From Actinotalea endophytica (GTDB lineage: Bacteria; Actinomycetota; Actinomycetes; Actinomycetales; Cellulomonadaceae), in contig NZ_JAOVZU010000009.1 in NCBI RefSeq assembly GCF_025717005.1, positions 1 through 64,000 on the forward strand: a stretch of DNA of 64,000 nucleotides, given 5' to 3'. The notes beneath the pieces are model-generated. The model ran no database searches and was not told the origin of the DNA. It saw only the letters and a program-made list of their open reading frames with translations. A program made the translations under genes and the position numbers. Shown here piece by piece: positions 3,077 to 23,032 of the stretch; within the stretch, counting starts at the first letter, position 1, and the number at the start of each line of letters is the position of its first letter.

Positions 3077-3083
3077 TCTGCTG

Positions 3084-4010: not shown

Positions 4011-4012
4011 CC

Positions 4013-10038: not shown

Positions 10039-10041
10039 CGG

Positions 10042-10059
10042 GATCGCCTCCTCGCGATC
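10042..10059 (-). promoter_or_regulatory. Hairpin with the ribosome-binding site in its loop (copy 1)
   Basis: Read on the minus strand the sequence is GATCGC-GAGGAG-GCGATC: a 6-bp perfect stem whose 6-nt loop is exactly the Shine-Dalgarno element of the serine hydrolase gene. The same 18 bases occur at 23033-23050 in front of the second copy, inside a 42-bp identical leader (10040-10081 and 23031-23072). Confidence 0.55.
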
Positions 10060-10139
10060 GGGCCCGTCCGCCGGCGGCAGACTCCCACCGTGGCACCCAG
10101 GCGGCCGCTGCCCAGGGACGAACGGCCCGCGGGCGCGGC

Positions 10140-10599: not shown

Positions 10600-10631
10600 A
10601 CTTGTACAGAGTGGTCTACCCTTGATAATGT
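10600..10631 (+). promoter_or_regulatory. Promoter with GntR-type operator upstream of the alpha/beta hydrolase
   Basis: ACTTGTACAGAGTGGT (10600-10615) matches 12 of 16 positions of the pattern ACTTGTATAGACAAGT seen at three other promoters nearby. It overlaps a possible -35 TTGTAC (10603-10608), with TAATGT (10626-10631) 17 nt downstream as -10. Repressor binding here would cover the -35 element. Confidence 0.55.
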
Positions 10632-10760
10632 CAGCCCTGCTCGACGGCGCGGGACTCCCGCGCCGCGCCTCACCGCCGAGGCGGCATCAGCAACCTCGCG
10701 CGGAGACGGGTTCGGCACGCACGTGCCGGACCGGCTTGGACACGACGAGGAGGTTGGGAG

Positions 10761-11666
10761 ATGCCGGAGATCACGCGCGGGAAGGTGGACGCGAACGGCC
10801 TGAGCTTCGAGTACCTGCAGGCTGGTGAGGGCCCCCTGGCCCTGTGCCTCCACGGGTTCCCGGACACGCCGTTCACGTACCGCCACCTGCTCACGGAGCT
10901 CGCCGAGGCGGGCTTCCACGCGGTCGCACCGTTCATCCGGGGCTACGCCCCGACCGAGCTGCCGCCGCTGCGCAGCCACGTGCACAGCAGCGTCATGGTC
11001 GCCGACGCGATCGCGCTCGGCCGCGCGCTCGGTGGTGACAAGGACGCCGTCCTCGTCGCGCACGACTGGTCGGCCGTGGCGGCGTGGGGCGCGCTGAGCA
11101 GGGCTCCCGAGCTGTGGGGTCGCTCGGTGATCATCAACATCCCGCCGTTCGAGGTCTTCGGCGAGAACGTCGCGAAGTTCGCGCAGATCAAGCGCGCCTT
11201 CTACTTCTGGTTCCTGCAGAACAACCGGATGATCATCGACAAGATCCAGCACAACGACTTCGAGCTGATCAAGGACCTGTGGGGCGAGTGGTCGCCGGGC
11301 TTCGACGCGACCGAAGAGCTCGTGCACGTGCGCGAGGCGCTGCCGACGCCCGAGCACATCCAGACCGCGATCAGCTACTACTCGGCCAACTTCCACCCGG
11401 AGCAGTTCGGGTCGGCCGCGTGGGCCGGCGAGCAGGAGGCGTCGTGGGCGGGCAAGGTCCCGCAGCCGGTGCTCTACCTGCACGGCACGCAGGACGGGTG
11501 CCACATGGTCACCGACGCGCAGCTCGACTACATCTGCGACTACGCGGGCCCGGGCTCGGAGGCGTCCTGGGTCGACGGTGTCGGCCACTTCATGCTGGTC
11601 GAGCAGCCGGCCGCGGTGAACGCCACGGTGATGGACTGGCTGAAGCGCACGGCGCCGGTCGGCTGA
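10761..11666 (+). CDS. Alpha/beta hydrolase, epoxide hydrolase / haloalkane dehalogenase-like
   Basis: 301 residues, cytoplasmic. The oxyanion region is LHGFPDTPF (about residue 30), and the nucleophile elbow reads VAHDWSA, with Asp rather than Ser as nucleophile, as in soluble epoxide hydrolases and haloalkane dehalogenases. The catalytic His is in GVGHFML near the C-terminus. A start at ATG 10761 is supported by GAGG about 8-9 nt upstream. It lies downstream of a GntR-type operator, so it may belong to the sugar regulon, although its chemistry has no obvious place there. Confidence 0.8.
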   Translation: MPEITRGKVDANGLSFEYLQAGEGPLALCLHGFPDTPFTYRHLLTELAEAGFHAVAPFIRGYAPTELPPLRSHVHSSVMVADAIALGRALGGDKDAVLVAHDWSAVAAWGALSRAPELWGRSVIINIPPFEVFGENVAKFAQIKRAFYFWFLQNNRMIIDKIQHNDFELIKDLWGEWSPGFDATEELVHVREALPTPEHIQTAISYYSANFHPEQFGSAAWAGEQEASWAGKVPQPVLYLHGTQDGCHMVTDAQLDYICDYAGPGSEASWVDGVGHFMLVEQPAAVNATVMDWLKRTAPVG

Positions 11667-11730
11667 CCGACGCACGCCTGGCCGGTCCGAGCGGCCGGCG
11701 GGCTGAGAACACTCGCGGGGTGCCGTCCTC

Positions 11731-11819
11731 GCGCCGCTCAGGGTGCCGAGCGGCGCGGGGCCCGCACCCGCGAGCCACGACGGTGCGGGCGCAACGGGGC
11801 TGCCCGCCGTCAAGCGGGC
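11731..11819 (+). other. Three consecutive intergenic hairpins
   Basis: Between the hydrolase and the DUF1097 gene lie three perfect stems in a row: GCGCCGCTC/GAGCGGCGC (11731-11756, 9 bp), GCCCGCACC/GGTGCGGGC (11760-11790, 9 bp) and GCCCGC/GCGGGC (11802-11819, 6 bp). The first may be a terminator or attenuator; the set could also form a structured RNA. No U-run follows, which is usual in high-GC actinobacteria. Confidence 0.5.
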
Positions 11820-11894
11820 GGCTGTGCCGCCGACGTGTCGCCGCAACGGTGCGGCGCACGCCCCTCGACGGGGCATGAGCCACTTGGAGCAATC

Positions 11895-12368
11895 GTGGAT
11901 CCTCTTCTCTCGATCGGAATCGGCATCGGCGTGCTCGCCGGGGTCTGGACGCAGGTCAGCGCCCTGCTCGCGCTGCCGACCTGGATCGCCTTCATCTCGT
12001 GGGCGGCCTTCTACGCCGCAGGGGGCAAGACGCAGGGCCTCCTCAAGGTCCTCCCGACGACGCTGTCCGGCGTCCTGTGGGGCTTCCTGATGGTCCAGCT
12101 CGGCGGCCTGATCGGCGGAACGGTCGGGCTCGCCATCGCCATCGCCGTCCTGGCCGTCCTCATGGTCGTCCAGGCCAAGTGGTCGGTGCTGGCCTTCGTG
12201 CCGGGTGCCTTCGCGGGTGCGGCGTCGTACTTCGGCAGCGGCCTGCAGTGGCGCGAGACCGTGATCTGCCTCGTGGTGGGCGCGCTCGCCGGCTGGTTGT
12301 CCGAGGCTGCGGCGACGTGGCTGCAGGGCCTTGGCCGCCGCCGGGCCGAGGCCGAGCCGGCGGCCTGA
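11895..12368 (+). CDS. DUF1097-family membrane protein
   Basis: 157 residues, with five or six hydrophobic segments. The pattern (WIAFISWAAFYAAGG near the start, GALAGWLSE near the end) is that of DUF1097 proteins, found in enteric bacteria as YcdZ and in some transporter neighbourhoods; function is unknown. GTG 11895 is chosen because TTGGAG lies 6 nt upstream and the hydrophobic protein begins at once; a longer reading upstream (11835) runs through the hairpin region and lacks a signal. Confidence 0.65.
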   Translation: MDPLLSIGIGIGVLAGVWTQVSALLALPTWIAFISWAAFYAAGGKTQGLLKVLPTTLSGVLWGFLMVQLGGLIGGTVGLAIAIAVLAVLMVVQAKWSVLAFVPGAFAGAASYFGSGLQWRETVICLVVGALAGWLSEAAATWLQGLGRRRAEAEPAA

Positions 12369-12376
12369 GATCAGGC

Positions 12377-12414
12377 GAGCCCGGGTGGAGTGCTGCGCGC
12401 CGCCACCCGGGTTC
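12377..12414 (+). terminator. Hairpin terminator after the DUF1097 gene
   Basis: GAGCCCGGGTGG (12377-12388) pairs with CCACCCGGGTTC (12403-12414), 12 bp with one G-U pair and a 14-nt loop, just after the stop codon and before the GntR promoter. Confidence 0.6.
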
Positions 12415-12458
12415 GCCGCCCCCGTCGTGGCGGCTCGCTTCGCACCGTCCGCGGGGTC

Positions 12459-12484
12459 TAGAGTCCTTGTCTAGACATGACAAG
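12459..12484 (+). promoter_or_regulatory. GntR promoter with autoregulatory operator
   Basis: TAGAGT (12459-12464) is a likely -10. Directly downstream, overlapping the expected start site, is CCTTGTCTAGACATGA (12465-12480), related to the operators at 10600, 13293 and 18137, and reminiscent of the TCTAGA-centred sites of HutC/DasR-type GntR regulators. A second symmetry, CTTGTC-N7-GACAAG (12466-12484), overlaps it. Autorepression is the simplest reading. Confidence 0.6.
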
Positions 12485-12500
12485 TGCGAAGGGGGACGAC

Positions 12501-13235
12501 GTGGAGGACGTGCTGCAGCGCGACTCGTCGGTGCCGCTGTATGCGCAGCTCGAGGCCATCCTCCGGGCGAAGATCGCCTCGGGGGAGTGGGCCCCGAACC
12601 GCCGGATCCCCTCGGAGAACGAGCTCAACCGGATCTACGGGTTGAGCAGGATGACCGCCCGTGGCGTGCTGACGACGCTGGTCAACGAGGGCCTGCTGTT
12701 CCGCGTCCAGGGGAAGGGCACCTACGTCGCACCCCCCAAGATCAACACCGTGTCGCCCGCTTATCGCGGAGTGCGCGAGCAGCTCGAGGCGATGGGGTAC
12801 GAGACCACCACGGAGCTCGTCGAGATCGGCATCGGTGACGTGCCCGAGTCCGTCCGGTCGCGACTCAAGGTGGGTCCGGACGACGACGTCTTCCACATCC
12901 ATCGGGTGCGTTCGGTCCAAGGGGAGCCGATCAGCTCCCACCACTCGTTCGTCCCCGCGGCGCTCGCGCCCGGGCTGCCCGACCGGGACGTCGTCACCGA
13001 GCAGCTCTGCGTGGTCCTGGACGAGTCCTACGGGCTGCAGATGCGTCGGGTCCACGAGGAGCTCGAGGCGATCTCGGCCTCGCGCGACCACGCGCGCGAC
13101 CTGAAGGTCCGCACCGGGACGCCGGTCCTGCTCCTCCAGGACCTCATCGCCGACGGCAACGACCGGCCGTTCGAGTTCTCGCGCATCGTCTTCCGGGGCG
13201 ACAAGGTGCGGTTGAGCTTCGACTACAGCTTCTAG
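12501..13235 (+). CDS. GntR-family (HutC subfamily) transcriptional regulator
   Basis: About 244 residues. The winged helix-turn-helix is at the N-terminus (PLYAQLEAILRAKI, PSENELNRIYGLSRMTARG) and the UTRA effector domain follows, with the typical HIHRVRSVQGEPIS strand. UTRA regulators usually bind small phosphosugars or related metabolites. GTG 12501 has AAGGGGGA 4 nt upstream; an ATG at 12477 lies inside the operator and is less likely. It sits just upstream of the aldolase cluster in the same direction but behind separate promoters, and is the obvious regulator of that cluster. Confidence 0.92.
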   Translation: MEDVLQRDSSVPLYAQLEAILRAKIASGEWAPNRRIPSENELNRIYGLSRMTARGVLTTLVNEGLLFRVQGKGTYVAPPKINTVSPAYRGVREQLEAMGYETTTELVEIGIGDVPESVRSRLKVGPDDDVFHIHRVRSVQGEPISSHHSFVPAALAPGLPDRDVVTEQLCVVLDESYGLQMRRVHEELEAISASRDHARDLKVRTGTPVLLLQDLIADGNDRPFEFSRIVFRGDKVRLSFDYSF

Positions 13236-13268
13236 CCGCGACAGCGCCCGGCGAACAGGTTCGGTCGC

Positions 13269-13308
13269 TTGACTCCCCGCTTTAATGCGTGTACTTGTAT
13301 GTACAGGT
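13269..13308 (+). promoter_or_regulatory. Promoter and GntR-type operator of the aldolase cluster
   Basis: TTGACT (13269-13274) is a good -35; 17 nt later TACTTG (13292-13297) is a weak -10 candidate. The operator ACTTGTATGTACAGGT (13293-13308) overlaps it and matches 13 of 16 positions of the pattern shared with the other sites. This is probably the main promoter for the run of genes from 13385 to 18100. Confidence 0.6.
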
Positions 13309-13384
13309 TAGTTCATGACTACGACCTTCAGCCGACGGTGACGTCGGGATGAGGGGCCGGCGGAATCACAGAGGAGTGATGGCA

Positions 13385-14101
13385 ATGGTCGATCTCGCTG
13401 CCGTGGACGCGTGGGAGCTCGGCAAGGCGTTCGACCACTCGGTCCTCCCGAAGGACACCACCGAGGAGAAGATCCGCCAGGGCTGCCGTGAGGCGAAGGC
13501 GTACAACTGCGCGGCGTTCTACTCGTCCTCGCCGTACTGGACGCCCGTCGTGTGCGAGGAGCTGGCCGGGACCGACGTCCGTCCGGCCGCCGCCGTCGCC
13601 TTCCCGTTCGGGTCGGCGACCGCAGCGATGAAGGCACGTGAGACCGACGAGGCCGTGGCCCTCGGCTGCACCGCCGTCGACGTCGTGATGAACATCGGCG
13701 CACTCAAGAGCGGGCGGACCTCGGACGTCGCGGCCGAGCTGCGGGACTTCAAGGACGCCGCCGGCGGGGCCCTCACGAAGGTGATCCTGGAGACCGCGTT
13801 CCTGAGCCCCGACGAGATCGCCACCGGCTGCAAGCTGATCGCCGACGCGGGCATCGACTACGCCAAGACGTCGTCCGGCCAGTTCGAGGGCCCGTCGATG
13901 GAGCACCTCCTGCTGATGAAGGCGACGCTCGAGGGCACGCCTGTGAAGCTCAAGGTCGCCGGCGTGAAGTTCCCCCGCCCGCAGAACGCCTACGCGTTCC
14001 TGCTCGCCGGCGCGGACCTGATCGGGACGCGCGCCGTCCCCGAGATCATCGACGCGCTGCAGAGCATGCGTGCGATCGGCCTGGTCCCGGCCCGGCGCTG
14101 A
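13385..14101 (+). CDS. DeoC-type (class I) aldolase, first paralogue
   Basis: About 238 residues, the usual length for deoxyribose-phosphate aldolases. The catalytic landmarks are visible: Asp in VDVVMNIGAL, the Schiff-base Lys in YAKTSSG, and the second Lys in LKVAGV. The family cleaves a phosphorylated aldol to an aldehyde and a phosphosugar fragment; the exact substrate may not be deoxyribose phosphate, since a second paralogue follows at once. ATG 13385 is 8 nt from GAGGAG (13371-13376); the ATG at 13379 is too close. First gene behind the GntR-type operator. Confidence 0.85.
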   Translation: MVDLAAVDAWELGKAFDHSVLPKDTTEEKIRQGCREAKAYNCAAFYSSSPYWTPVVCEELAGTDVRPAAAVAFPFGSATAAMKARETDEAVALGCTAVDVVMNIGALKSGRTSDVAAELRDFKDAAGGALTKVILETAFLSPDEIATGCKLIADAGIDYAKTSSGQFEGPSMEHLLLMKATLEGTPVKLKVAGVKFPRPQNAYAFLLAGADLIGTRAVPEIIDALQSMRAIGLVPARR

Positions 14102-14158
14102 CGGCTCCCGTCCCACCTCGGCCGGAGATCCCGGCCCTTCGTCACCCGAGAGGCATCG

Positions 14159-14866
14159 ATGCTGACCCCAGAGCTGTTCGCCAAGGTCTTCGACATGGCC
14201 GTCCTGGCGCCTGACACCCGAGAGGCCGCGATCCGCGCGGCGTGCGCGCAGGCGAAGGACGTCGACGTCGCTGCGCTCTACACCAACCCGTGCTGGACGC
14301 CGGTCGTAGCCGACGAGCTCGCCGGCTCCGGCGTCCGCACCGGAGTCGCGCTCGGGTTCCCGTACGGCACCACGACCCTGCGCACGAAGCTGGCCGAGGC
14401 CGAGGAGGCGCTCGCCGCGGGGGGCACGGCGCTGGACATGGTGATCAACATCGGCGCGCTCAAGGACGGCAACCTCGCCCTGGTGCGCGACGAGGTACGC
14501 GGGCTGGTCGAGCTGTGCCGCGGGCGCGCCCTGGCGAAGGTGATCTACGAGGTCTGCTTCCTCAGCGACGACGAGATCCGCACCCTCACCGGCATCTGCG
14601 TCGAGGAGGGCGTCGACTGGATCAAGACCTCGACGGGCTCCCAGGGACTGCCGGACGCGCACCACCTCGAGGTGATGAAGGAGGGGCTGGTCGGCAGCAC
14701 GACGCAGCTCAAGCTCTCCGGGGTGCCGCGGCAGTTCACCCTGGCCGCGTGCCTCTGGATGCTCGACATGGGCGTCACGCTCATCGGCACCCGCTCTGCG
14801 CCGCGGCTCGTCGACGAGTACCGCGAGCACCTCGCTCGCCTGACCACATCCACTGTGCACGACTGA
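14159..14866 (+). CDS. DeoC-type (class I) aldolase, second paralogue
   Basis: 235 residues. The same landmarks as its neighbour, with Asp in LDMVINIGAL, Schiff-base Lys in WIKTSTG (closer to the classical DERA motif) and Lys in LKLSGV. GAGAGG lies 5 nt before the ATG. Overall similarity to the first paralogue is obvious (FPYGT/FPFGS, NPCWTPVV/SPYWTPVV), but they differ at many positions. Two adjacent DeoC paralogues suggest either a heteromeric enzyme or two stereo- or substrate variants. Confidence 0.85.
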   Translation: MLTPELFAKVFDMAVLAPDTREAAIRAACAQAKDVDVAALYTNPCWTPVVADELAGSGVRTGVALGFPYGTTTLRTKLAEAEEALAAGGTALDMVINIGALKDGNLALVRDEVRGLVELCRGRALAKVIYEVCFLSDDEIRTLTGICVEEGVDWIKTSTGSQGLPDAHHLEVMKEGLVGSTTQLKLSGVPRQFTLAACLWMLDMGVTLIGTRSAPRLVDEYREHLARLTTSTVHD

Positions 14867-14886
14867 GAACGCTGGAGGGCACTTCA

Positions 14887-16413
14887 ATGCCGAAGTACCT
14901 GGTGGGGATCGATGAAGGCACGACCGGCTGCAAGACGTGCGTCTTCGACGTCGACGGCAACGTGCTGGGACAGGACTACCGCGAGTACCCGTGCCACTAC
15001 CCGCGCCCGGGGTGGGTCGAGCAGGTGCCCGAGGAGATCACCCCGGCGCTCTTCGCGTCGTGCAAGGCGGCGGTCGAGCGGTCGGGCGTCGACCCGGCGG
15101 ACATCGTCGCGCTCGCCCTGGCGACCCAAGGGGCCGTGATCGGTCTGCTGGACGAGGACGGCGAGCTGATCAGGCCCTTCGTGGGGTGGCAGGACCTCAG
15201 GGGTGAGGAGTCGGTCGACCAGATCACGGATCGGATCCCCGTCCCGGAGTACTACGCGATCACCGGCGACCCGCTCGGGTTCGTGTTCTCGACCACGAAG
15301 CTCGCCTGGCTGCGCGAGCACGAGCCGGAGAACTGGGCGCGCACCGCGCTGTTCTCGACCCACATGGACTACTTCATGCGCCAGTTCGGAGCGCAGGAGT
15401 ACTGGACCGACATCTCCTCGGCGAGCCGCGAGGGCATGTTCGACGTGGACAACCACGAGTGGTCCCAGCGCGTGCACGACGTGCTCGGCATCCCGCTGAG
15501 CAAGCGCGCGAAGATCGCGCTCGAGCCGGGCAAGGTCGTCGGCACGCTCCCGGCGCACGTCGCCGCCCAGACCGGCCTGGCCGAGGGCACGCTGCTGTGC
15601 ATCGGTGCGCACGACCAGAACGCGTCGACGTTCGGTGCCGGTGCGGTGCGCGACGGGACCGCCGTGATGGTGGTGGGCACCTTCGGCTCCTGCTTCGTGG
15701 TGACCGACAAGCCCGTCCGCGACCCCGACGGCAAGCTTGTGGTCAAGGGCAACCATGGCGTGGGGAACTGGACGATCGAGGGCTTCTCGAACGCCTCGGC
15801 GTCCTCGTTCCGGTGGTACCGGGACGTGTTCGGTGACCTCGAGTCCGCTGCGGCGAGGACCGTCGGCGTCGACCCCTACGAGCTGATCTGCGCCGAGGCC
15901 GAGCACGCCGAGCCCGGTGCCGGGGGAGTCACGTTCCTGCCGTACCTCCAGGGCGCGGCGGGAGCCCGCCTCAACGCCGACGCACGCGGGTGCTTCGTCG
16001 GGATGTCCTTGGGGACCACGAAGGCCCAGATGGCCCGGGCCGTGCTCGAGGGCATCACCTTCGAGATGCGCGACGTGCTCGAGGCCGAGGCGAAGGCCGG
16101 GATCACCGTGGAGACCATCCGCCTGACCGGCGGCGCGGCGAAGTCGCCGTTCTGGTGCCAGCTGATGGCCGACGTGTTCGGCAAGCCGATCGAGTTGCTC
16201 CAGACCACGGAGACCGGCTGCCTCGGGGCGGCGCTCTACGCGGGGATCGGCGCCGGCATCTACGCGGGCCCGCACGACGCGGTCGACCGAGCGGTGACGA
16301 CCACGGCGGTCTACCACCCGGACCCGTCGCGGGCCGCCGTCTACGACGAGGCGTTCGGTCGCTTCGTCCGCATCTACGAGGCGCTCGACGGCACGGTGTT
16401 CGGCGCGTCCTGA
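14887..16413 (+). CDS. FGGY-family carbohydrate kinase (xylulokinase-like)
   Basis: 508 residues. The N-terminal ATPase-fold phosphate loop is GIDEGTTGCKTCVFD; the C-terminal domain has LTGGAAKSPFWCQLMADVFG and TGCLGAALYAG, typical of FGGY sugar kinases. It should phosphorylate a ketose or polyol at a terminal hydroxyl. The start at ATG 14887 has TGGAGGG upstream. Its place between the DeoC pair and the class II aldolase suggests it supplies the phosphorylated substrate for cleavage; the sugar is not known. Confidence 0.88.
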   Translation: MPKYLVGIDEGTTGCKTCVFDVDGNVLGQDYREYPCHYPRPGWVEQVPEEITPALFASCKAAVERSGVDPADIVALALATQGAVIGLLDEDGELIRPFVGWQDLRGEESVDQITDRIPVPEYYAITGDPLGFVFSTTKLAWLREHEPENWARTALFSTHMDYFMRQFGAQEYWTDISSASREGMFDVDNHEWSQRVHDVLGIPLSKRAKIALEPGKVVGTLPAHVAAQTGLAEGTLLCIGAHDQNASTFGAGAVRDGTAVMVVGTFGSCFVVTDKPVRDPDGKLVVKGNHGVGNWTIEGFSNASASSFRWYRDVFGDLESAAARTVGVDPYELICAEAEHAEPGAGGVTFLPYLQGAAGARLNADARGCFVGMSLGTTKAQMARAVLEGITFEMRDVLEAEAKAGITVETIRLTGGAAKSPFWCQLMADVFGKPIELLQTTETGCLGAALYAGIGAGIYAGPHDAVDRAVTTTAVYHPDPSRAAVYDEAFGRFVRIYEALDGTVFGAS

Positions 16414-16460
16414 CGGGCGATTGCCGAGCGCCCCGGCGCGCGAACGAAGGAGGAGAGCAG

Positions 16461-17330
16461 ATGAGGCGCTCGACACTGGCCATGGTCCGCGACGCGCACG
16501 ACAACGGGTACGCCGTGCCGGCGTTCAACGTGGTGGACGACCTGAGCCTCCGCGCGGTGGTCGATGCCGCGGAGGAGGCCGGCTCACCCGTGATCATCCA
16601 GGCCTCGCTCAAGACCGCGCGATCGATCGGCGTCGAGCTGCTCACCGAGATGTTCGACGCCGCGACCGCTCGCTGCCGGGTCGACACGGCACTCCACCTC
16701 GACCACTGCCCGGACCTGTCGATGATCGAGCGGGTCGTGGCGGCCCGGTGGTCGTCGGTGCTCTTCGACGCGTCGGACCGCGACCTCGGTCAGGCGGTCG
16801 CCGAGACCTCGGCGGTGGTCGGGCTCGCGCACGCCGCGGGGGTGGACGTGGAGTCGGAGATCGAGAACATCGTCGGCGTCGAGGACGGCGTGGGCTCGGA
16901 CGTGATCGTGCACAGCTACTCCGTCGAGCAGCTGGCCGACGCGATCCGGACGACCGGCGCCGACCTCATCGCGCCGCAGCTGGGCACCGCGCACGGTGCG
17001 TACCACGGGCGCCCGACCCTGCTGCCGCACCGGGTGCGCGAGCTGCGCGAGCTGGTCGACTGCCCGGTGGTCCTGCACGGCGGCACCGGTCTGACCGAGG
17101 CCGAGTTCCGGTCGCTCATCGCGGCCGGCGTCTCGAAGATCAACATCTCGACCGCCGTCAAGCACGCCTACATGGACTCGGCCTACCACTTCCTGAAGAA
17201 GGCCCGGGCGAAGGACGAGTGGGACCCGCCGTCGCTGTTCCGGAGCATCGCGGGGGAGATCCGTGCGGTGGCCCTGCGGCACTTCGACATCTTCGGTTCG
17301 GCGGGGCGCTCACCCGGGGTGCAGTCGTGA
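16461..17330 (+). CDS. Class II ketose-bisphosphate aldolase family protein (FbaA/GatY/KbaY type)
   Basis: 289 residues. Zinc-site features are present: LHLDHC with the catalytic Asp and first His, then PQLGTAHGAYHG and LHGGTGL, which bind the second and third His ligands and the substrate phosphate. NISTAV is the usual C-terminal phosphate-binding stretch. AAGGAGGAG precedes the ATG. Members cleave ketose-1-phosphate or -1,6-bisphosphate sugars to dihydroxyacetone phosphate and an aldehyde. Confidence 0.9.
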   Translation: MRRSTLAMVRDAHDNGYAVPAFNVVDDLSLRAVVDAAEEAGSPVIIQASLKTARSIGVELLTEMFDAATARCRVDTALHLDHCPDLSMIERVVAARWSSVLFDASDRDLGQAVAETSAVVGLAHAAGVDVESEIENIVGVEDGVGSDVIVHSYSVEQLADAIRTTGADLIAPQLGTAHGAYHGRPTLLPHRVRELRELVDCPVVLHGGTGLTEAEFRSLIAAGVSKINISTAVKHAYMDSAYHFLKKARAKDEWDPPSLFRSIAGEIRAVALRHFDIFGSAGRSPGVQS

Positions 17331-18100
17331 CGACCTGCCTGCTCTTCGACTGCGACGGCGTGCTCGCGGACACCGAGCGCGACGGCCACCTGGTCGCCTT
17401 CAACCGCATGTTCGCCGAGCTGGGCGTCCCGTTGCGGTGGTCCGACGAGGAGTATGCGCGGCTCGTCCGGATCGGTGGCGGGAAGGAGCGCCTGGCCGCG
17501 GCGATGACGCCCGAGGTCGCCGAGCGACTGGGTCTTCGCAACGCCGACGCCGTGGCGCGGGCGATCGCCGGCTGGCACCGGCGCAAGAGCGACCTCTACC
17601 GCGAGCTCGTCGCCTCCGGGGCGGTGCCGGCGCGACCGGGGGTGCGCCGTCTCGTCGCCGAGGCCGTCGCGGCGGGGTGGCAGGTGGCGGTCGCCTCGAC
17701 GTCGGCGCCGGGCTCCGTGCTCGCGGTGCTCGAGCATGCTGTCGGCCCCGCCCTCGCGGCCGAGGTGCGGGTGTTCGCGGGTGACGTGGTGCCGCGCAAG
17801 AAGCCGTCGCCGGACATCTACCTGCACGCGCTCGCCGAGCTCGGCGGGTCGCCCGGCGATGCGGTGGTGGTCGAGGACAGCGGGATCGGCCTCGCGGCCG
17901 CGCGCGCGGCGGGGCTCCCGGTCGTGGTGACCGTCTCGTCCTACACCGTCGACGACGACGTCACGGGCGCGTCGCTCGTGCTGAGCGATCTCGGCGAGCC
18001 GGGGGCGCCGGGCCGGGTGCTGGACGACCCGCTCGACCTGAAGCCCGGGGCCGTCGACGTCGCGCTGCTGCGCGAGGTCATCGCGGCCGGCGCCGGGTAG
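17327..18100 (+). CDS. HAD-superfamily phosphatase / beta-phosphoglucomutase-like
   Basis: 257 residues. Motif I is FDCDGVLADTE at the N-terminus, motif II TSAP (VASTSAPG), motif III the Lys in RKKPSPDIY, and motif IV VVEDSGIGLAAARAAG. This is the CbbY/phosphoglucomutase-like subgroup with a helical cap. The GTG start overlaps the aldolase stop (GTGA at 17327-17330), so the two are translationally coupled. A phosphatase or mutase acting on a phosphosugar of the same pathway is likely. Confidence 0.88.
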   Translation: MTTCLLFDCDGVLADTERDGHLVAFNRMFAELGVPLRWSDEEYARLVRIGGGKERLAAAMTPEVAERLGLRNADAVARAIAGWHRRKSDLYRELVASGAVPARPGVRRLVAEAVAAGWQVAVASTSAPGSVLAVLEHAVGPALAAEVRVFAGDVVPRKKPSPDIYLHALAELGGSPGDAVVVEDSGIGLAAARAAGLPVVVTVSSYTVDDDVTGASLVLSDLGEPGAPGRVLDDPLDLKPGAVDVALLREVIAAGAG

Positions 18101-18128
18101 GGGCAGCAGCCCGATCGGGCGATCTCGC

Positions 18129-18157
18129 TGGACCATCGTGGTATAGACAAGTATATT
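18129..18157 (+). promoter_or_regulatory. Second GntR-controlled promoter inside the cluster
   Basis: TGGACC (18129-18134), 17-nt spacer, TATATT (18152-18157) form a fair promoter. The operator CGTGGTATAGACAAGT (18137-18152) fills the spacer; its right half GTATAGACAAGT is the best half-site in the window. It would control the transaldolase-like, RpiB-type and transketolase genes as a second unit. Confidence 0.65.
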
Positions 18158-18198
18158 CAGCAACAGCGCATGAAGCGCTCGGACGCGATGGAGGCCTG

Positions 18199-19548
18199 AT
18201 GTTGACCGTCAACCAGCACACCACCGGCGACGGCCAGCTCGGGCTGCGGACCACGTTCGCCGCGCTCGACCTCGCCCCGGCCCGGGGCCACGAGGAGGTT
18301 CTCTCCCGGGTCGGACGCCTCGAGGTCGACCCCGGGCAGGTCGCCCTGATGCGGGAGCACGCGCGCGCCGTGGCCGGCAGCGACCGGTTCCACGACGTGC
18401 TCCGCACGTTCCCCACCCCGGCGGGGGAGACACCCCCGGGGTTCCGCATCGAGGCCGCACTGCTCGCCGACGGGCTGCTCGAGGTCGACCTCGTCCGGGA
18501 CATCGGCTACGGCCGCAACGGTGAGCGCAGGCCGACCGGCGTCATCTTCTCGGCCGACTCGGCGAACCCCTACGAGGTCGCGCCGGTCGCGGGCCTGCTC
18601 GGGAACCTCACCTGCAACCCCGGCATCGTCTACGACCTCTTCATCAACAACCCGGACGCCAACATCGGCCACCAGTTCACGACGCTCGAGGAAGTGATGG
18701 GCGAGCTCGGGTCGGTCCTCGGGCCGGGTGCCGACGTCAGCGTCGAGCTCGAGAACCCGTTCGAGGACGACTTCGACCGCATCCTCGCCGAGATCGAACC
18801 CTACGAGCGGCTGCTCTCGCGGTACCGGCTCGTGGTGAAGGTGCCGCACACCGGGCCGGTGAACGCGGGCAACGTCTCCCGGCTCCTCACCGGCGACGGC
18901 CGACTCCCGGACTGGTACGCCGACGCGCGCACCGAGGACTCGTTCCGGTCCCACAACCTCGCGCTCCGGCTGCGCGAGCACGGGTACCGGATCAACTACA
19001 CGCTGATGTTCGAGCCCTACCAGGCGGCGCTCGCGCTGCAGGCGAAGCCCTACTTCATCAACGCCTTCGTGCGCCACCGGCTGGGCCAGAGCATGCGCAT
19101 CCGGGAGCTCGTCGAGCTGTACCACCGCACCCACGACCGTCGTCACCTGGAGGCCCTGCGCACCTACCTGGTGGGCGTGGACCACCTCAGCGAGGAGAGC
19201 CCGGTACGGGACCTGGTGGACGTCCTGGAGTACGCCGAGGACCTCCTCGACTACCGCCGCCTCGGGGACGCGGAGGGCGCGGACGGCCTGGACAGCCTGC
19301 GGCACAGCCTGCGGCTGCTCAAGCAGTGCCACCTCGACGACACCCGGATCATCGTGTGCTCGATGGAGGGACCGCGGAACTACCCGGACATCGACAAGCT
19401 CACCGTCGACCCCGAGTTCGCCGACGTGATCGACCGCCTCATCATCACGGCCGAGCCGGCCTACCTGGCGCGGTTCGCGTCGGCGAGCCACGTCGTGTCC
19501 TACCAGCGCCGCTTCATGGCCGCCGCCGCGACCAGCGTGCACGTGTGA
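18199..19548 (+). CDS. Divergent transaldolase-superfamily protein with C-terminal extension
   Basis: 449 residues, longer than classical transaldolases (about 220-380). The transaldolase barrel signature is clear: FSADSANPYE followed by LTCNPGIVYD (equivalent to the DSA..GvTTNPsl segment), Schiff-base Lys in VVKVPHTG (Lys about 214), and INYTLMFEPYQAALA then FINAFVRHR (equivalent to N.TLlFs..QA and the phosphate-binding SPFvGR). The last ~140 residues have no counterpart that I recognise. Family role: transfer of a dihydroxyacetone unit between sugar phosphates, or aldol cleavage. It is first in a unit with isomerase and transketolase genes. Confidence 0.72.
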   Translation: MLTVNQHTTGDGQLGLRTTFAALDLAPARGHEEVLSRVGRLEVDPGQVALMREHARAVAGSDRFHDVLRTFPTPAGETPPGFRIEAALLADGLLEVDLVRDIGYGRNGERRPTGVIFSADSANPYEVAPVAGLLGNLTCNPGIVYDLFINNPDANIGHQFTTLEEVMGELGSVLGPGADVSVELENPFEDDFDRILAEIEPYERLLSRYRLVVKVPHTGPVNAGNVSRLLTGDGRLPDWYADARTEDSFRSHNLALRLREHGYRINYTLMFEPYQAALALQAKPYFINAFVRHRLGQSMRIRELVELYHRTHDRRHLEALRTYLVGVDHLSEESPVRDLVDVLEYAEDLLDYRRLGDAEGADGLDSLRHSLRLLKQCHLDDTRIIVCSMEGPRNYPDIDKLTVDPEFADVIDRLIITAEPAYLARFASASHVVSYQRRFMAAAATSVHV

Positions 19549-19558
19549 GGAGGCCGCG

Positions 19559-20002
19559 ATGATCATCGGATTCGGCTCCGACCCGAACGCGTCCGACCTG
19601 CGGGCGGCACTGATGGGCCATGCGGTCGCCCTCGGGCACCACGTCGTGGACCTCGGCTCGGACGACCCCGTGTACGCCCACACCGCGGTGCGCGTGGCGG
19701 AGGAGGTCGTGGCGGGCCGACTCGATCGCGGGGTGCTGCTCTGCGGTACCGGCATCGGGATGTCGATCGCCGCGAACAAGGTCGACGGCGCCTACTGCGC
19801 CCTGGTGGCCGACAGCTACCAGGCGCGTCGCGCCCAGCTCAGCAACAACGCGAACCTGATCGCCGTCGGTGCCCTCGTCACGGGCCCCGAGCTGGCGAAG
19901 GTCCTGCTCGAGGAGTACCTGAGCCACGAGTTCGACCCGGGCTCGAGGAGCGCGGTCAAGGTCGACGCGATCCGCAGCTACGAGAGCCGGGCCACCGCGT
20001 GA
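19559..20002 (+). CDS. RpiB/LacAB-family sugar-phosphate isomerase
   Basis: 147 residues. The hallmark active-site stretch LLCGTGIGMSIAANK is present, with the catalytic Cys about residue 62, and GSDDPVYAHTAVRVAEEV precedes it. The family interconverts aldose and ketose phosphates of five or six carbons. GAGGAGG overlaps the previous stop (19547-19553). With the kinase it could set up the ketose phosphate used by the transketolase; the substrate need not be ribose 5-phosphate. Confidence 0.88.
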   Translation: MIIGFGSDPNASDLRAALMGHAVALGHHVVDLGSDDPVYAHTAVRVAEEVVAGRLDRGVLLCGTGIGMSIAANKVDGAYCALVADSYQARRAQLSNNANLIAVGALVTGPELAKVLLEEYLSHEFDPGSRSAVKVDAIRSYESRATA

Positions 20003-20865
20003 GTGCCGTCCAGGAGCGTCGACCGGTCGCGGACCTCGCGCTCGCGGCCGCACGGGCGCGAAGGTTCGTCCTGCGCATGCTCGAGGCCTCGCCGGCCGGG
20101 CACGTCGGCGGGGCGCTGTCGGCGATCGACCTGGTGACCGCCCTCTACACGAGGGCCCTGCGGGTCGACCCCGACGACCCGCGCGCGCCGGGGCGGGACC
20201 GGTTCCTGCTCTCGGCCGGCCACAAGGCGCTCGCGCAGTACGCGGTGCTCGCGCTGACCGGCTTCTTCCCGCCGGACCTGCTCGACACCTACGGGGCGAC
20301 CGGCAGCGCCCTGGGCGGGCACCCGGACATGGCCAAGCTCCCGGGCATCGAGGCCAACACCGGTGCGCTCGGCCACGGGCTCCCGCTCGCGGTCGGCATG
20401 GCCCTCGGCCTGAGGCGATCGCAGTCGGGCAGCCGCGTCGTCGTCCTGCTCGGTGACGGTGAGCTCGCCGAAGGGTCCAACTGGGAGGGCGCAGCCGTCG
20501 CATCCCACCACAGGCTGTCGAACCTCGTGGCGATCGTGGACGTCAACGGTCTGCAGATCGGCGGGCCGACGGCTCAGGTGATGGGCATGGAGCCGATCGC
20601 CGAGAAGTTCCGCGCGTTCGGCTGGGTCGTGACCGAGGTCGACGGCCACGACCTCGACGGGATCCTCGACGTCCTCGACCGCCTGCCGTTCGCTCCCGAC
20701 GCTCCGAGCGCGATCATCGCCACCACCTGCAAGGGGAAGGGGATCACGGCGATCGAGGGCACCGTCGGCTCGCACTACTGGAAGCCGTCGGCGGCCGAGC
20801 TCGCCGACGCCGTCCGCGAGGCCGACGCGGCCGTCACGTCGCTCGAGCGGGAGGTCGCGTCGTGA
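19999..20865 (+). CDS. Transketolase N-terminal subunit
   Basis: 288 residues, the half-size subunit of a split transketolase. The thiamine-diphosphate motif is GDGELAEGSNWE followed by VDVNGLQ. Other transketolase landmarks are GHVGGALSAID and GALGHGLPLAVGMALG. GTG 19999 overlaps the isomerase stop (GTGA). It needs the C-terminal partner encoded next. Split transketolases are common in dedicated sugar-catabolic loci rather than in the core pentose phosphate pathway. Confidence 0.92.
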   Translation: MSAVQERRPVADLALAAARARRFVLRMLEASPAGHVGGALSAIDLVTALYTRALRVDPDDPRAPGRDRFLLSAGHKALAQYAVLALTGFFPPDLLDTYGATGSALGGHPDMAKLPGIEANTGALGHGLPLAVGMALGLRRSQSGSRVVVLLGDGELAEGSNWEGAAVASHHRLSNLVAIVDVNGLQIGGPTAQVMGMEPIAEKFRAFGWVVTEVDGHDLDGILDVLDRLPFAPDAPSAIIATTCKGKGITAIEGTVGSHYWKPSAAELADAVREADAAVTSLEREVAS

Positions 20866-21800
20866 CGGTGCTGGTGGACCCGCGCGCGACGTTCGGCGCT
20901 GCCGTGACCGAGGTCGCTGCGCACGACCCGCGAGTGGCTGTGGTCTCCACCGACAGCGGCGGGTCGTCGGGCTTCGGCGACTTCGCGCGGCTCTACCCCG
21001 AGCGGTACCTGGAGGTCGGGATCCTCGAGCAGGGCGCGACCGGCGTGGCCGCCGGGCTCGCCACCACCGGCGCGGTCCCGGTGTTCTGCGCGATCGCGCC
21101 CTTCGTGACCTGCCGCAACTTCGAGGCCGTGCGGAACGACCTCGGCTACATGCGGCAGAACGTCAAGGTGGTCGGCCGCAACGGCGGCCTGACGTACGCC
21201 GACCTCGGGCCCACGCACCATTCGCTCGAGGACTACGCGCTGATGCGGATGATCCCCGGGATGGTCGTGCTCGCGCCGCAGGACGCCGGCGAGATCCGCG
21301 GTGCGGTGCGCGCGATGCTCGAGCACGACGGTCCGGTGTACATGCGCATCGGCGGCCCTGCGGTGCCGTCCCTCTTCGCGGACGACGACTTCGAGATCGG
21401 GCGGGCGCGGCACCTGCGGACCGGCGAGGACCTCACGGTCGTGTCGACCGGGTACGTCACGCCGGCGGTGCTGGAGGCGGTCGACGGACTCGCGTCCGAA
21501 GGCATCGCCGCGGACCTGCTCGGGCTCGGAACCGTCGAGCCGCTCGACCAGGAGGCGATCCTTGCCTCGGCCCTGCGGACCGGCGTCGTCGTCACCGTCG
21601 AGGAGCACTACGTCCGTGGGGGCCTCGGCGGTGCGGTCAGCGAGCTGCTCGCGGAGGTGCCCGGTGTGCAGGTGCACCGGATCGGCGTCCGCCACGGGTA
21701 CGTCTCGACCGGCCGGTACGTCGAGCTGCTCGCGGCGGCCGGCCTCGACGCCCCGGGGCTGACCAGCCGGATCCGGGAGATCGCACACGGCGGGCGGTAG
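20862..21800 (+). CDS. Transketolase C-terminal subunit
   Basis: 312 residues, containing the pyrimidine-binding domain (EVGILEQGATGVAAGLA with the cofactor-activating Glu) and the C-terminal domain (LTVVSTGYVTPAVLEA). GTG 20862 overlaps the stop of the N-terminal subunit (GTGA), so the two halves are translationally coupled. It completes the thiamine-dependent enzyme that moves a two-carbon unit between sugar phosphates. It ends 15 bp before the convergent serine hydrolase copy 2. Confidence 0.92.
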   Translation: MTVLVDPRATFGAAVTEVAAHDPRVAVVSTDSGGSSGFGDFARLYPERYLEVGILEQGATGVAAGLATTGAVPVFCAIAPFVTCRNFEAVRNDLGYMRQNVKVVGRNGGLTYADLGPTHHSLEDYALMRMIPGMVVLAPQDAGEIRGAVRAMLEHDGPVYMRIGGPAVPSLFADDDFEIGRARHLRTGEDLTVVSTGYVTPAVLEAVDGLASEGIAADLLGLGTVEPLDQEAILASALRTGVVVTVEEHYVRGGLGGAVSELLAEVPGVQVHRIGVRHGYVSTGRYVELLAAAGLDAPGLTSRIREIAHGGR

Positions 21801-21815
21801 CCACCACCGTGCCCG

Positions 21816-23030
21816 TCAGCCCTCCGGGATCCCGGCGACGAAGTTCGCCACGAGGTTGAGGTTGGCCTTCTCGATCCCCCAGGGGCCGTCGCCGTGCTCG
21901 TCCCAGAGCGGATCGGCCTTGAGCACGACGACGAGGTCCTCCTCGGGCAGGACGGCGATCTGCTGGCCGCCGTGGCCCCAGGCGAGGTCGTAGGTCCAGG
22001 GGCCGGCGTCGATCAGCCACCACTGGTAGCCGTAGGAGGAGTGCCAGTTCGGGCCGACGGCGTAGTACCAGGCGTCCTCGGTGTACTTCTGCCAGGACTG
22101 CTCGATCCAGTCGGTGGGGATCACCTGGCGTCCGTCGTGGACCCCGCCGTCGAGGTAGGTCTGGCCGAACCGGGCCATCTCGCGCGCGGACAGCGACAGG
22201 TCGGCGTGGCCGTGCCGGTAGCCGGCCCGGTCGGCCATCCACTGCTCGGGCTCGATGCCGAGCGGGTCGAACAGGTGCTCGGTGGCGAAGTCCATCAGGT
22301 CCTCGCACGCCCGGGCGACGATGATCGCCAGCAGGTGCGAGGACAGGTTCGAGTAGTCCCAGCCGCTGCCGGGGTCACGCTTCAGCGGGACGTCGACGAG
22401 GCTTGCCGGCGTGAAGCGGCTGTAAAGCAGCTCCATGCCCTCCGCGGTGGCTTCCTCCCAGGGGTACCCGGCCCGCATCTGGAGCAGCTGGCGGATCGTG
22501 ATCTCGGTCTTGCGCGGGTCGTCGAGCTGGGCCTCGAGCTCGGGGAAGTACGTGATCATCGGCTCGTCGAGGCTCGGGAGGCAGCCTTCGTCGAGCGCGA
22601 TCCCCACCAGCGCCCCGGTGTAGCTCTTGGTCACCGACGCCACGGCGCTGTGCTGGGTCGGGCTGCCTGTCCGGTAGTACTCCTCCGCGACGAGGTAGCC
22701 GTTCTTGATCACGAGCAGGCTGTAGATCGTCTCCAGGTTGGCGGCGCGCCAGTAGAGGTCGGCGACCAGGTCGGGGTCGAGGCCCTGGGCCTCGGGGGTC
22801 GAGACCTGCCAGCCCTCGACGTCGGGTCCGGGGGCGTAGTCGACCGCGGCGAGCTGTTCGGGCGTCGGGTCGGGTTCGCCGCCGCAGGCCGCCAGGGCCA
22901 CCGTGGCAGGCAGCGCGCAGGCGAGCGTCGCGGCGATCGCGCGGAGCCTCCGGGCCGCGAGCGGTCGGGGCGGGCGCCGCCGGGACCCCGGCCGGCCGAT
23001 CCGGGCGCGCCGACGCGCCGTGGGGGTCAT
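21816..23030 (-). CDS. Serine hydrolase lipoprotein, beta-lactamase/penicillin-binding class C fold (copy 2)
   Basis: 404 residues, paralogue of the gene at 8797-10038. Lipobox LAAC, SVTK (Ser about residue 132), WDYSN and WGHGGQQ are all intact. Differences concentrate in the segment after ARAC (copy 2 lacks two residues there and reads FDPLGIEPEQW instead of FDPLDTTPGRW) and around the SxxK serine (HSAVASVTK versus STNVQSVTK). Both copies therefore look functional and may differ in specificity. Confidence 0.85.
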   Translation of the reverse strand: MTPTARRRARIGRPGSRRRPPRPLAARRLRAIAATLACALPATVALAACGGEPDPTPEQLAAVDYAPGPDVEGWQVSTPEAQGLDPDLVADLYWRAANLETIYSLLVIKNGYLVAEEYYRTGSPTQHSAVASVTKSYTGALVGIALDEGCLPSLDEPMITYFPELEAQLDDPRKTEITIRQLLQMRAGYPWEEATAEGMELLYSRFTPASLVDVPLKRDPGSGWDYSNLSSHLLAIIVARACEDLMDFATEHLFDPLGIEPEQWMADRAGYRHGHADLSLSAREMARFGQTYLDGGVHDGRQVIPTDWIEQSWQKYTEDAWYYAVGPNWHSSYGYQWWLIDAGPWTYDLAWGHGGQQIAVLPEEDLVVVLKADPLWDEHGDGPWGIEKANLNLVANFVAGIPEG

Positions 23031-23032
23031 GG

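Follow-up and report, generated by a model that had tools for sequence, protein, structure and literature searches.

A candidate GntR regulon encoding a distinct transaldolase subfamily, with a possible role in tetrose phosphate metabolism, in Actinotalea endophytica

Introduction

In the pathway for D-apiose that uses a transketolase, an FGGY kinase acts together with a split transketolase, and in the erythritol (Ery) pathway EryA is a kinase of the FGGY type and EryI an isomerase of the RpiB type. D-Erythrose 4-phosphate (E4P) derived from erythritol enters the metabolism of Brucella through Tal or Fba plus Tkt, as described in a section of PMC11508834. In the sulfo-TK route of sulfoquinovose degradation, SqwI and SqwGH act on a four-carbon aldose/ketulose pair, according to the part of PMC9594981 that deals with them. 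The locus from Actinotalea endophytica that is analysed here encodes counterparts of Tal, Fba, and Tkt by family. No description of its gene set was found in a literature search that covered openly licensed PMC papers.

Gene content and genomic setting

The ORF list and family profile searches delimit a set of ten genes, all on the + strand, at 12.5–21.8 kb of the window (the whole stretch of 64,000 nucleotides that was analysed). It starts with a GntR-family regulator with a UTRA domain (12477..13235; PF00392, 66.1 bits; PF07702, 111.6 bits), which is followed by the class I aldolase DeoC1 (13349..14101), its paralogue DeoC2 (14159..14866), a xylulokinase-related FGGY sugar kinase (14887..16413), a class II (F_bP_aldolase) aldolase (16461..17330; PF01116, 244.3 bits), and a HAD-family phosphatase (17327..18100; PF00702, 89.1 bits). 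The remaining genes encode a transaldolase-like protein of 449 residues (TAL-like; 18199..19548), an RpiB-family isomerase (19559..20002; PF02502, 131.6 bits), and the N-terminal (19999..20865; PF00456, 154.4 bits) and C-terminal (20862..21800; PF02779, 120.5 bits; PF02780, 86.1 bits) components of a split transketolase. Neither the FGGY kinase nor the class II aldolase reached any of the listed NCBIfam cut-offs; for the kinase, 12 models were listed, the best of them xylulokinase (312.9 bits, cut-off 380.25). The nearest PDB entry for the N-terminal transketolase component is 6yak, a split-chain transketolase (E = 1.7e-75). The Pfam and NCBIfam scan of the ten cluster proteins found no member of a dehydrogenase or racemase family, and PF02952 (SqvD-type isomerase) had no match in the Pfam scan. 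The scanned cluster and upstream proteins included none named as a nucleoside phosphorylase or phosphopentomutase.

All enzymes that a sequence-only reading had listed, from the two DeoC proteins and the FGGY kinase to the 449-residue transaldolase-like protein and the split transketolase, are present, and their families were confirmed. The range of that reading, which began at position 10600, proved too wide, as the genes for an alpha/beta hydrolase (10761) and a DUF1097 protein (11835) lack the operator pattern described below and fall outside on this evidence. Upstream ABC and GH2 genes were also left out; they have CACGTTGCAA repeats of their own and lie beside a LacI-family gene.

The housekeeping tkt-tal-zwf-opcA operon of the host is intact elsewhere in the genome, so the ten-gene cluster is an accessory and probably acquired set. 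An apparent empty site in a sister genome was rejected, since it contained one copy of a flanking repeat gene in otherwise non-syntenic surroundings, and the insertion boundary could not be drawn from this comparison. Searches for plasmid homologues returned none for TAL-like, 50 records for DeoC1, and six for the FGGY kinase, all of the latter two groups below 60% identity.

A shared operator

The pattern CTTGTMTRKACM occurs as an exact match at 12466..12477 (+ strand), 13294..13305 (+ strand), and 18140..18151 (− strand). These predicted GntR operators lie 5′ of gntR, of deoC1 (block 1), and of the TAL-like gene (block 2), in agreement with the proposed arrangement of two blocks behind GntR-type operators, and the GntR protein of the window would bind all three and act as a repressor. 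The 4.25-Mb genome contains three exact matches, all in this cluster (one for the reversed control), a count that is circular when taken alone because the pattern was built from those three sites. With one mismatch allowed, there were four matches in the window, one of which overlaps the first site in reverse orientation, against 0.75 expected (two of 100 shuffles reached four). An independent test of the operator came from other organisms: of 60 loci with a TAL-like gene, 15 have the window-derived pattern in the 160 nt that precede this gene, compared with a mean of 0.02 and a maximum of 3 for ∼500 shuffled patterns. The carriers were Treponema, Propionibacteriaceae, Bifidobacteriaceae, and Clostridia. 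In four loci beyond these 15 (L018, L047, L053, and L070), the operator precedes an operon of RpiB, the two transketolase components, and TAL-like. A relaxed scan (one mismatch, 250-nt span) gave 22/60 loci (mean 0.63 and maximum 6 in 300 controls). The consensus across loci is TTTACTTGTATATACAAGTTAA, and parts of the gene set recur with the same operator in distant bacteria. As judged from these sites, the operator marks a predicted regulon that is common to three phyla. The TAL-like genes of EutH-type, Synergistaceae, and most DhaKL loci had no scored operator in front of them; therefore, not every TAL-like protein belongs to the regulon.

In Flavonifractor, the operator also precedes AcnX, a racemase-like gene, and an oligopeptide-type ABC transporter, which do not resemble tetrose enzymes. 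The matrix-scored site in L053 and L070 is located ∼74 nt before the operon of this family 5 transporter, the only transporter tied to the operator. A TRAP transporter adjoins FGGY-DeoC-GntR-TAL in Treponema (L032), and no operator of its own was scored. The exact whole-genome scan of the host found no site beyond the three, so no transporter can be linked to the regulon in this organism. The conserved operator TTTACTTGTATATACAAGTTAA offers a direct computational route to the rest of the regulon, and hence to its substrate.

TAL-like forms a distinct transaldolase subfamily

TAL-like barely exceeds the gathering cut-off of PF00923 (27.5 bits, cut-off 27) and matched no NCBIfam model. Its predicted structure (pLDDT 88.4) has the TIM-barrel transaldolase fold. 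The best Foldseek match in the PDB was 1vpx (E = 8.9e-10, TMt = 0.81), and of the 50 listed matches, 47 carry the name transaldolase or FSA, the other three being chains of 9v4b, titled L-glyceraldehyde-producing enzyme. K214, E183, and F290 are conserved in all 43 rows of the TAL-like alignment; Lys214 is the predicted Schiff-base lysine and Glu183/Phe290 the putative transaldolase-type Glu/Phe signature, corresponding to the Glu60/Phe132 pair named in PDB titles (equivalences were set by motif and strand order, and partly by a separate comparison). We infer that TAL-like is a working transaldolase. The positions equated with the phosphate-site arginines of TAL/FSA are occupied by His or Asn (293) and Glu or Asp (390) in 43/43 rows, H293 and E390 in the window protein, whereas Ser388 of the presumed site is kept and Arg292 and Arg294 are invariant. 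This mapping relied on motifs and strand order, with β7 placed by eye and β5/β6 in agreement with the separate comparison; a profile alignment (hhalign) to Escherichia coli FsaA reached a probability of only 0.3%. The usual phosphate site of transaldolases thus appears to be altered. TAL-like is a distinct transaldolase subfamily, and the earlier label of a divergent transaldolase, though right, understated this.

Within its class, TAL-like was found in one of 296 genomes, the window's own. In 13 of the 29 carrier genomes, no PF00923 match other than TAL-like was found. Within one family, canonical TAL was present in 4/19 carriers versus 104/158 non-carriers (p = 2.7e-4 in a Fisher test that ignores kinship, with absences that stem partly from draft genomes and MAGs). 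The two proteins coexist in L052 and other genomes. If this reading is correct, the subfamily may substitute for the textbook enzyme in certain bacteria, and genomes that seem to lack transaldolase would be misread today.

Few of the partner genes are found near most TAL-like loci: RpiB in 12/72, split transketolase components in 11/72 and 12/72, and DeoC in 10/72, with DhaK (DHA kinase) genes in 14/72. On the tree, linkage of DeoC and FGGY required 8 changes (mean of 8.8 over 500 shuffles, 174 of which were as low), with context labels set by hand for 34 of 64 rows, 30 rows in no group, and L015 labelled DeoC_FGGY though its 9-kb contig showed FGGY only. We read this scattered linkage, no more clustered than chance, as repeated linkage, to which frequent loss or no link would look alike.

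Altered sites in the DeoC pair and RpiB

DeoC1 and DeoC2 pass the DERA equivalog model TIGR00126 (147.9 and 148.9 bits, respectively, cut-off 117.3), and the equivalents of DERA Lys167, Asp102, and Lys137 are kept in 15/15 rows of the DeoC alignment. DERAs bind phosphate through the loops SGG and GTSS, or GVSA in some of them. These canonical loops are absent from both DeoC proteins of the window, whose corresponding segments (AGVKF and SGVPR; GTRA and GTRS) are unlike the loops in the closest DERAs of known structure.

RpiB scores above the generic RpiB subfamily model (NF004051; 137.5 bits, cut-off 135) and below the D-erythrulose-4-phosphate isomerase equivalog (NF051858; 131.4 bits, cut-off 240). 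In all eight aligned RpiB proteins (from the window and seven other loci), the E. coli His99 position is Ser, and Cys66 is kept. The LSNN motif is also found in the second-best PDB match, 5ifz. The section of PMC3212906 on the structure of Coccidioides immitis RpiB, which has the same change, identifies this His as the ring-opening residue and voices its authors' suspicion of shorter-chain substrates. Replacement of the ring-opening His by Ser suggests a four-carbon substrate for RpiB.

Proposed route and alternatives

We favor, tentatively and with a probability of roughly 45%, a GntR-controlled accessory route that makes and consumes a short sugar phosphate, most likely E4P. Block 1 would be the entry, in which FGGY acts as kinase on a sugar or on a fragment of it, and a C–C bond is formed or cleaved by DeoC1/DeoC2 via Schiff-base chemistry. 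Block 2 would be the exit: RpiB would interconvert E4P and erythrulose 4-phosphate, the split transketolase would transfer two-carbon units, and TAL-like would transfer three-carbon (dihydroxyacetone) units. The class II aldolase and HAD phosphatase could form a parallel bisphosphate route from DHAP and E4P through sedoheptulose bisphosphate to sedoheptulose 7-phosphate. The E4P assignment is based on the RpiB residue and analogy to the Ery pathway, and the direction of flow is likewise presumed. The cross-phylum operator, the RpiB Ser, the counterparts of the Tal, Fba, and Tkt through which E4P enters Brucella metabolism, the fold and residues of TAL-like, its status as sole PF00923 match in carriers, and the intact operon of the host count for the E4P route. 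Against it stand H293/E390, which argue against phosphorylated distal ends, the RpiB scores on either side of the two model cut-offs, the lack of an Ery-type tetritol-phosphate dehydrogenase in the cluster, and the two DeoC proteins, which E4P handling leaves unexplained. The rarity of partners near TAL-like, its coexistence with canonical TAL in some genomes, the groups without an operator, the chance-level DeoC+FGGY linkage, and the Flavonifractor operator before non-tetrose-like genes also weigh against it.

It is rather unlikely that a fuller version holds in every step, namely an undescribed sugar pathway that Actinomycetota, Bacillota, and Spirochaetota conserve in the form of a single GntR regulon. 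There, FGGY would phosphorylate the sugar, and a DeoC-type aldolase whose phosphate site has been remodeled would release E4P and a two-carbon aldehyde, which in some anaerobes would be reduced by an Fe-ADH or AKR encoded nearby. The new transaldolase subfamily, a tetrose-type RpiB, and the split transketolase would assimilate the C4 half, and in many of the genomes TAL-like would have taken the place of canonical TAL. If true, a sugar route would be visible as a single conserved DNA switch in three phyla.

The apparently altered phosphate site, seen in 43/43 rows, would also fit a TAL-like enzyme that acts on a ketose without phosphate or with some other modification and splits it by transfer of its dihydroxyacetone part to glyceraldehyde 3-phosphate, giving fructose 6-phosphate and a free aldehyde, with FGGY, DeoC, and HAD processing the latter. 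A reaction of this type is described for sulfofructose in the relevant part of PMC9594981, sulfofructose transaldolase (8c4i) is among the Foldseek matches of TAL-like, and DhaK is encoded nearby in 14/72 loci. However, with S388 kept and R292/R294 invariant, TAL-like may still bind an anion, its operon and operator are shared with RpiB and transketolase, which suits phosphorylated intermediates, and it is the sole PF00923 match in 13/29 carriers, so we consider this explanation unlikely. The last count would also suit a second copy of ordinary pentose phosphate or deoxyribose phosphate enzymes, in which a xylulokinase-like FGGY, DERA, and a non-oxidative module serve pentose or deoxynucleoside use. 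Split transketolases and RpiB are common pentose phosphate pathway enzymes, xylulokinase is the best FGGY model, and the DeoC proteins and RpiB exceed their DERA and generic cut-offs, so the case against standard enzymes rests on altered sites: the DeoC phosphate loops and the ring-opening His missing from RpiB in 8/8. Together with the lack of a named nucleoside phosphorylase or phosphopentomutase among the scanned proteins, the complete housekeeping set of the host, and the rarity of TAL-like (1/296), these make a second copy quite improbable. An FGGY kinase with a split transketolase is a feature of the D-apiose pathway, which proceeds via apulose-4-phosphate transketolase, and the combination of an RpiB-family isomerase and a two-part transketolase is similar to that of SqwI and SqwGH in the sulfo-TK route for sulfoquinovose, as presented in part of PMC9594981. 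That the cluster encodes either known pathway is nevertheless very improbable, as two DeoC proteins and TAL-like are foreign to both, PF02952 is unmatched among the ten cluster proteins, and no apiose-named model was among the NCBIfam matches (a library that may lack such models).

The sequence-only reading had suggested a new pathway for catabolism of an unusual sugar, to be dropped if all enzymes were standard pentose phosphate or deoxynucleoside ones and their expression was not coordinated. TAL-like, which matches no NCBIfam model, and RpiB, which lacks the His, are not standard in this sense. Since the host keeps tkt-tal-zwf-opcA and the same operator and parts of the set recur in distant bacteria, what stands of the pathway idea is a dedicated, non-housekeeping regulon of aldol-type and two-carbon-transfer enzymes; no transporter is tied to it in this host.

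Comparison with known systems

The DeoC proteins belong to the DERA sequence family (TIGR00126) and share its Lys167/Asp102/Lys137 equivalents, with the phosphate-binding loops replaced. The cluster has its FGGY kinase and split transketolase in common with the D-apiose transketolase pathway and differs in the rest of the set. It resembles the Ery pathway of Brucella in the kinase step, the E4P isomerase (EryI), and entry of E4P by Tal/Fba/Tkt, as covered in part of PMC11508834. However, the erythritol-phosphate dehydrogenase and racemase of that pathway were not found in the cluster, its transaldolase is of another subfamily, and the DeoC pair is added. In the sulfo-TAL route, the sulfofructose transaldolase SqvA is likewise a TAL_FSA member with transaldolase fold recruited to a peripheral sugar route (PMC9594981, in the portion on this enzyme). 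The chains of 8c4i have 217–222 residues and 14–15% identity to TAL-like, which differs in its length of 449 residues, N-terminal extension, and insertions. Like sulfo-TK (SqwI, SqwGH), the cluster pairs a PF02502 isomerase with a two-part transketolase (19559–21800), but SqvD was not found in it, and it shows no sign of a sulfonate substrate and additionally encodes TAL-like, the DeoC pair, FGGY, the class II aldolase, and HAD.

Gene set and operators of the cluster

The genes named in the sequence-only reading are all present on the + strand in near-contiguous order, and their family assignments were confirmed. Block 1 contains gntR, deoC1, deoC2 and the genes for the FGGY kinase, the class II aldolase (Ald2) and the HAD phosphatase; block 2 contains the gene for the 449-residue transaldolase-like protein (TAL-like; 18199-19548), rpiB, and tktN and tktC, which encode the two components of a split transketolase (TKN and TKC). 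Overlaps occur at 17327 (aldolase/HAD), 19999 (rpiB/tktN) and 20862 (tktN/tktC). The window is G000:C20:1-64000 of a 4.25 Mb genome in 20 contigs, which its relatives in the searches mark as actinobacterial. The proposal that the cluster breaks down the phosphorylated form of an unusual sugar was upheld in part: the cluster is a peripheral sugar regulon that includes a distinct transaldolase subfamily, and the support did not extend to the substrate.

Sites similar to one another occur at 12466, 13294 and 18140 (the last on the minus strand), upstream of gntR, deoC1 and the TAL-like gene, respectively; the 14-bp form of the operator is CTTGTATATACAAG. The pattern CTTGTMTRKACM, which covers all three sites, has three exact matches genome-wide, all at the cluster (reversed control, 1); because it was built from these same sites, all that can be read from this count is a local regulon. 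The search in loci from other organisms is an independent test of the regulon, the pattern being derived from the window. Scanning the TAL-like protein against a collection of 84,980 species genomes gave 61 loci. All but the short contig L074 were then searched for the pattern (60 loci), with approximate gene starts mostly taken from the tblastn match. It occurred within 160 nt upstream of the TAL-like gene in 15 of the 60 loci (five Treponema, seven Propionibacteriaceae, one Bifidobacteriaceae and two Clostridia), which are not 15 independent events because several carriers are near relatives. In four further loci (L018, L047, L053 and L070) it was found ∼2.3 kb upstream, preceding an RpiB-TKN-TKC-TAL operon. 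The 855,269 bases of the loci held 25 sites in total, and ∼500 shuffled patterns averaged 0.018 loci and 0.98 sites, with maxima of 3 and 8, respectively. Allowing one mismatch and widening the span to 250 nt recovered 22/60 loci (300 controls: mean 0.63, maximum 6). Among the seven Treponema loci, the operator preceded the TAL-like gene in five as an exact match and in all seven with one mismatch.

Taken together, 26 distinct sites, including the three in the window, give the near-palindromic consensus TTTACTTGTATATACAAGTTAA. A scoring matrix was trained on those 26 sites, so its scans are partly circular; it scored sites ahead of genes for DeoC, TK or RpiB in five loci (L014, L032, L047, L115 and L117), and in L047 also where the gene for the class II aldolase begins. 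The matrix scan found no site before the TAL-like gene in EutH-type loci, Synergistaceae and most DhaKL loci, with L077 as an exception among the latter (18 bits). In two Flavonifractor loci (L053 319-5000 and 14600-15401; L070 184-4880 and 14594-15370), the interval between the RpiB-TKN-TKC-TAL operon and divergent AcnX genes contains matrix-scored sites; further sites lie ∼50–70 nt ahead of an Asp/Glu-racemase-like gene (score 22.2-27.9) and ∼74 nt ahead of an oligopeptide-type, family 5 ABC transporter operon encoding SBP_bac_5, an OppC-type permease and an ATPase (21.7-23.5). Such genes might suit a substrate that is conjugated or acidic, which we treat as a lead and not as a result.

The transaldolase-like protein and canonical transaldolase

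The TAL-like protein had a marginal match to PF00923 and none among the NCBIfam models. Its predicted structure (pLDDT 88.4) had Thermotoga transaldolase 1vpx as the best structural match (E 8.9e-10, TM 0.81 on the target). Residues D120, T138, N140, E183, K214, P216, H217, F290, R292, R294 and S388 are invariant in all 43 aligned rows, and position 293 is His in 39 rows and Asn in four, position 390 Glu in 40 and Asp in three. E183 and F290 match the Glu60/Phe132 pair that sets transaldolases apart from FSA (Gln59/Tyr131), as judged from PDB titles that name variants with these residues swapped. From strand order and partly from a further alignment, H293 and E390 probably sit at the usual positions of the phosphate-site arginines, a mapping that stays inferred because hhalign against FsaA gave no usable alignment. 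The altered phosphate site favors an alternative reading, in which the substrate of the TAL-like protein would be an unphosphorylated ketose.

Among 29 carrier genomes hand-chosen from the loci obtained, 13 had only a weak PF00923 match (E 1e-3 to 1e-10), judged by its strength, and by its location wherever this was checked, to be the TAL-like protein itself; in one further genome a PF00923 match was absent altogether. In the family of the isolate Tessaracoccus sp. SD287 (177 genomes, many of them drafts), 19 genomes carry the TAL-like protein, two as fragments only. Full canonical transaldolase was found in 4/19 carriers versus 104/158 non-carriers (Fisher p = 2.7e-4), and any other PF00923 member in 10/19 versus 135/158 (p = 0.0018), both uncorrected for kinship. 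The housekeeping operon of the Bifidobacteriaceae metagenome-assembled genome G885 runs tkt-zwf-opcA, without an intervening tal (L118 3707-8513), and this genome has no PF00923 match other than the weak one interpreted as TAL-like; the corresponding operon in the genome of the window runs tkt-tal-zwf-opcA (L116). The tkt, tal and zwf products score above their equivalog cut-offs, and OpcA is below its cut-off in both operons (242.4 and 187.8 versus 256.25). This pattern suits a TAL-like protein that replaces transaldolase in some genomes and is accessory in that of the window.

Neighborhoods of the TAL-like gene

Partners were located by tblastn in 72 loci with the TAL-like gene, 12 of them under 8 kb and the window excluded: Ald2 in 22, HAD in 23, GntR in 15, FGGY in 15, RpiB in 12, TKN in 11, TKC in 12, DeoC in 10, DhaK in 14 and DhaL in 16, with DeoC and FGGY jointly in eight. 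Three arrangements recur. DeoC and FGGY, with or without RpiB/TK, occur in Actinomycetota, Bacillota and Treponema. DhaKL, in many cases accompanied by Ald2 and HAD, occurs mainly in Actinomycetota. The third, from Nocardioides, Tetrasphaera and Mycolicibacterium, combines LysR, an FAD oxidase, Ald2, HAD, EutH and an APH-type kinase. Many loci, chiefly from Treponema and Synergistaceae, have the TAL-like gene without these partners. The single-contig genome G1055 (L105) holds a compact Ald2-HAD-TAL-DeoC-FGGY group with a facing GntR gene, and in Tessaracoccus SD287, TK and FGGY-DeoC2-DeoC1 are together and the TAL-like gene is on a different contig.

A set that resembles the third arrangement is conserved in the actinobacterial loci L057 and L062-L068 (LysR, an FAD glycerol-3-phosphate-oxidase-like protein, a Pyr_redox-like protein, Ald2, HAD, EutH, an APH-type kinase and TAL-like; EutH is on the opposite strand in L066 and L068), and appears to put the TAL-like family to a separate use. 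In Christensenella (L073 4883-12948), genes for UPF0261, Fe-ADH, phosphofructokinase, TAL-like and DhaLK are consecutive; PEP-hydrolase-like proteins adjoin TAL-like clusters in this and a second Bacillota locus (L040 5984-8021). An Aconitase X gene adjoins the RpiB-TKN-TKC-TAL operon of an Oscillospiraceae locus (L018 6143-13369), followed by DapA-like and KDG-kinase-like genes. In genome G940 (L114 2122-7680), a nickel-pincer (LarA-type) isomerase of group 22 adjoins a fused DHA-kinase-family protein and RpiB-TKN-TKC, ∼7–13 kb away from the TAL-like gene.

RpiB and the two DeoC proteins

Furanose ring closure is impossible for erythrose 4-phosphate (E4P). In all eight aligned RpiB proteins (the window and seven of the TAL-like loci, 12/72 of which have RpiB by tblastn), Ser replaces His at the position of E. 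coli His99 and Cys66 is kept. PMC3212906 describes His at this position as the ring-opening residue and reports Ser in C. immitis RpiB, for which its authors suspect shorter-chain substrates. RpiB of the window passed the generic RpiB model (137.5, cut-off 135) and, at 131.4, fell short of the cut-off of 240 set for erythrulose-4-phosphate isomerase.

Both DeoC proteins score above the DERA cut-off, their catalytic residues are retained in 15/15 aligned rows, and the phosphate-binding loops are replaced in both. DeoC1 is rare, found in 2/296 genomes of a phylum sample (E ≤ 1e-50): that of the window and G672, which also holds cut pieces of the TAL-like gene. The two DeoCs need not form a pair, because some loci (L105, L032 and L035) have a single DeoC.

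Origin and surroundings of the cluster

The TAL-like protein occurs in 1/19 genomes of the genus and 5/221 of the family, that of the window counted. A quick 64-row tree, with SH-aLRT as the only support measure, places the protein of the window (support 98-100) with L014-L016, which come from Propionibacteriaceae and an unplaced actinobacterium; the remaining carriers in its family, L006-L009, fall elsewhere. Horizontal gain is the simplest reading of this distribution and phylogeny.

A 1.3-kb direct repeat (8796-10107 and 21815-23098, 87.3% identity) flanks the cluster, hinting at recombination around it; it consists of two serine-hydrolase/beta-lactamase-like genes in the same orientation (83% amino acid identity), present as a single copy in one sister genome. 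The left contig end (1-132) encodes the C-terminal end, with an HRPH motif, of what we take to be an integrase-like transposase, so the cluster region lies beside a mobile element. A separate carbohydrate locus at 505-8822 encodes a LacI-family protein (minus strand), an ABC binding protein with two permeases, and a pair of GH2-like enzymes; the repeat CACGTTGCAA occurs three times at 1532-1596, against 0.01 expected. Just upstream of gntR, a DUF1097 membrane protein (11835-12368; PF06496, 104.7 bits) is a possible candidate transporter; no operator of the cluster regulon precedes its gene.

Proposed mechanism

A retro-aldol step would yield a two-carbon aldehyde and E4P, a scheme that would employ every enzyme of the cluster. 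Such an aldehyde would be a fitting substrate for the Fe-ADH encoded in three loci (L035, L040 and L072) and for the AKR that L035 also encodes. By analogy with Brucella, we favor E4P as the intermediate, because the cluster encodes Tal-like, Fba-like and split Tkt proteins and a tetrose-type RpiB. In Brucella, E4P derived from erythritol enters via Tal or Fba plus Tkt (PMC11508834). The RpiB-family isomerase and two-part transketolase also resemble SqwI and SqwGH of the sulfo-TK pathway (PMC9594981).
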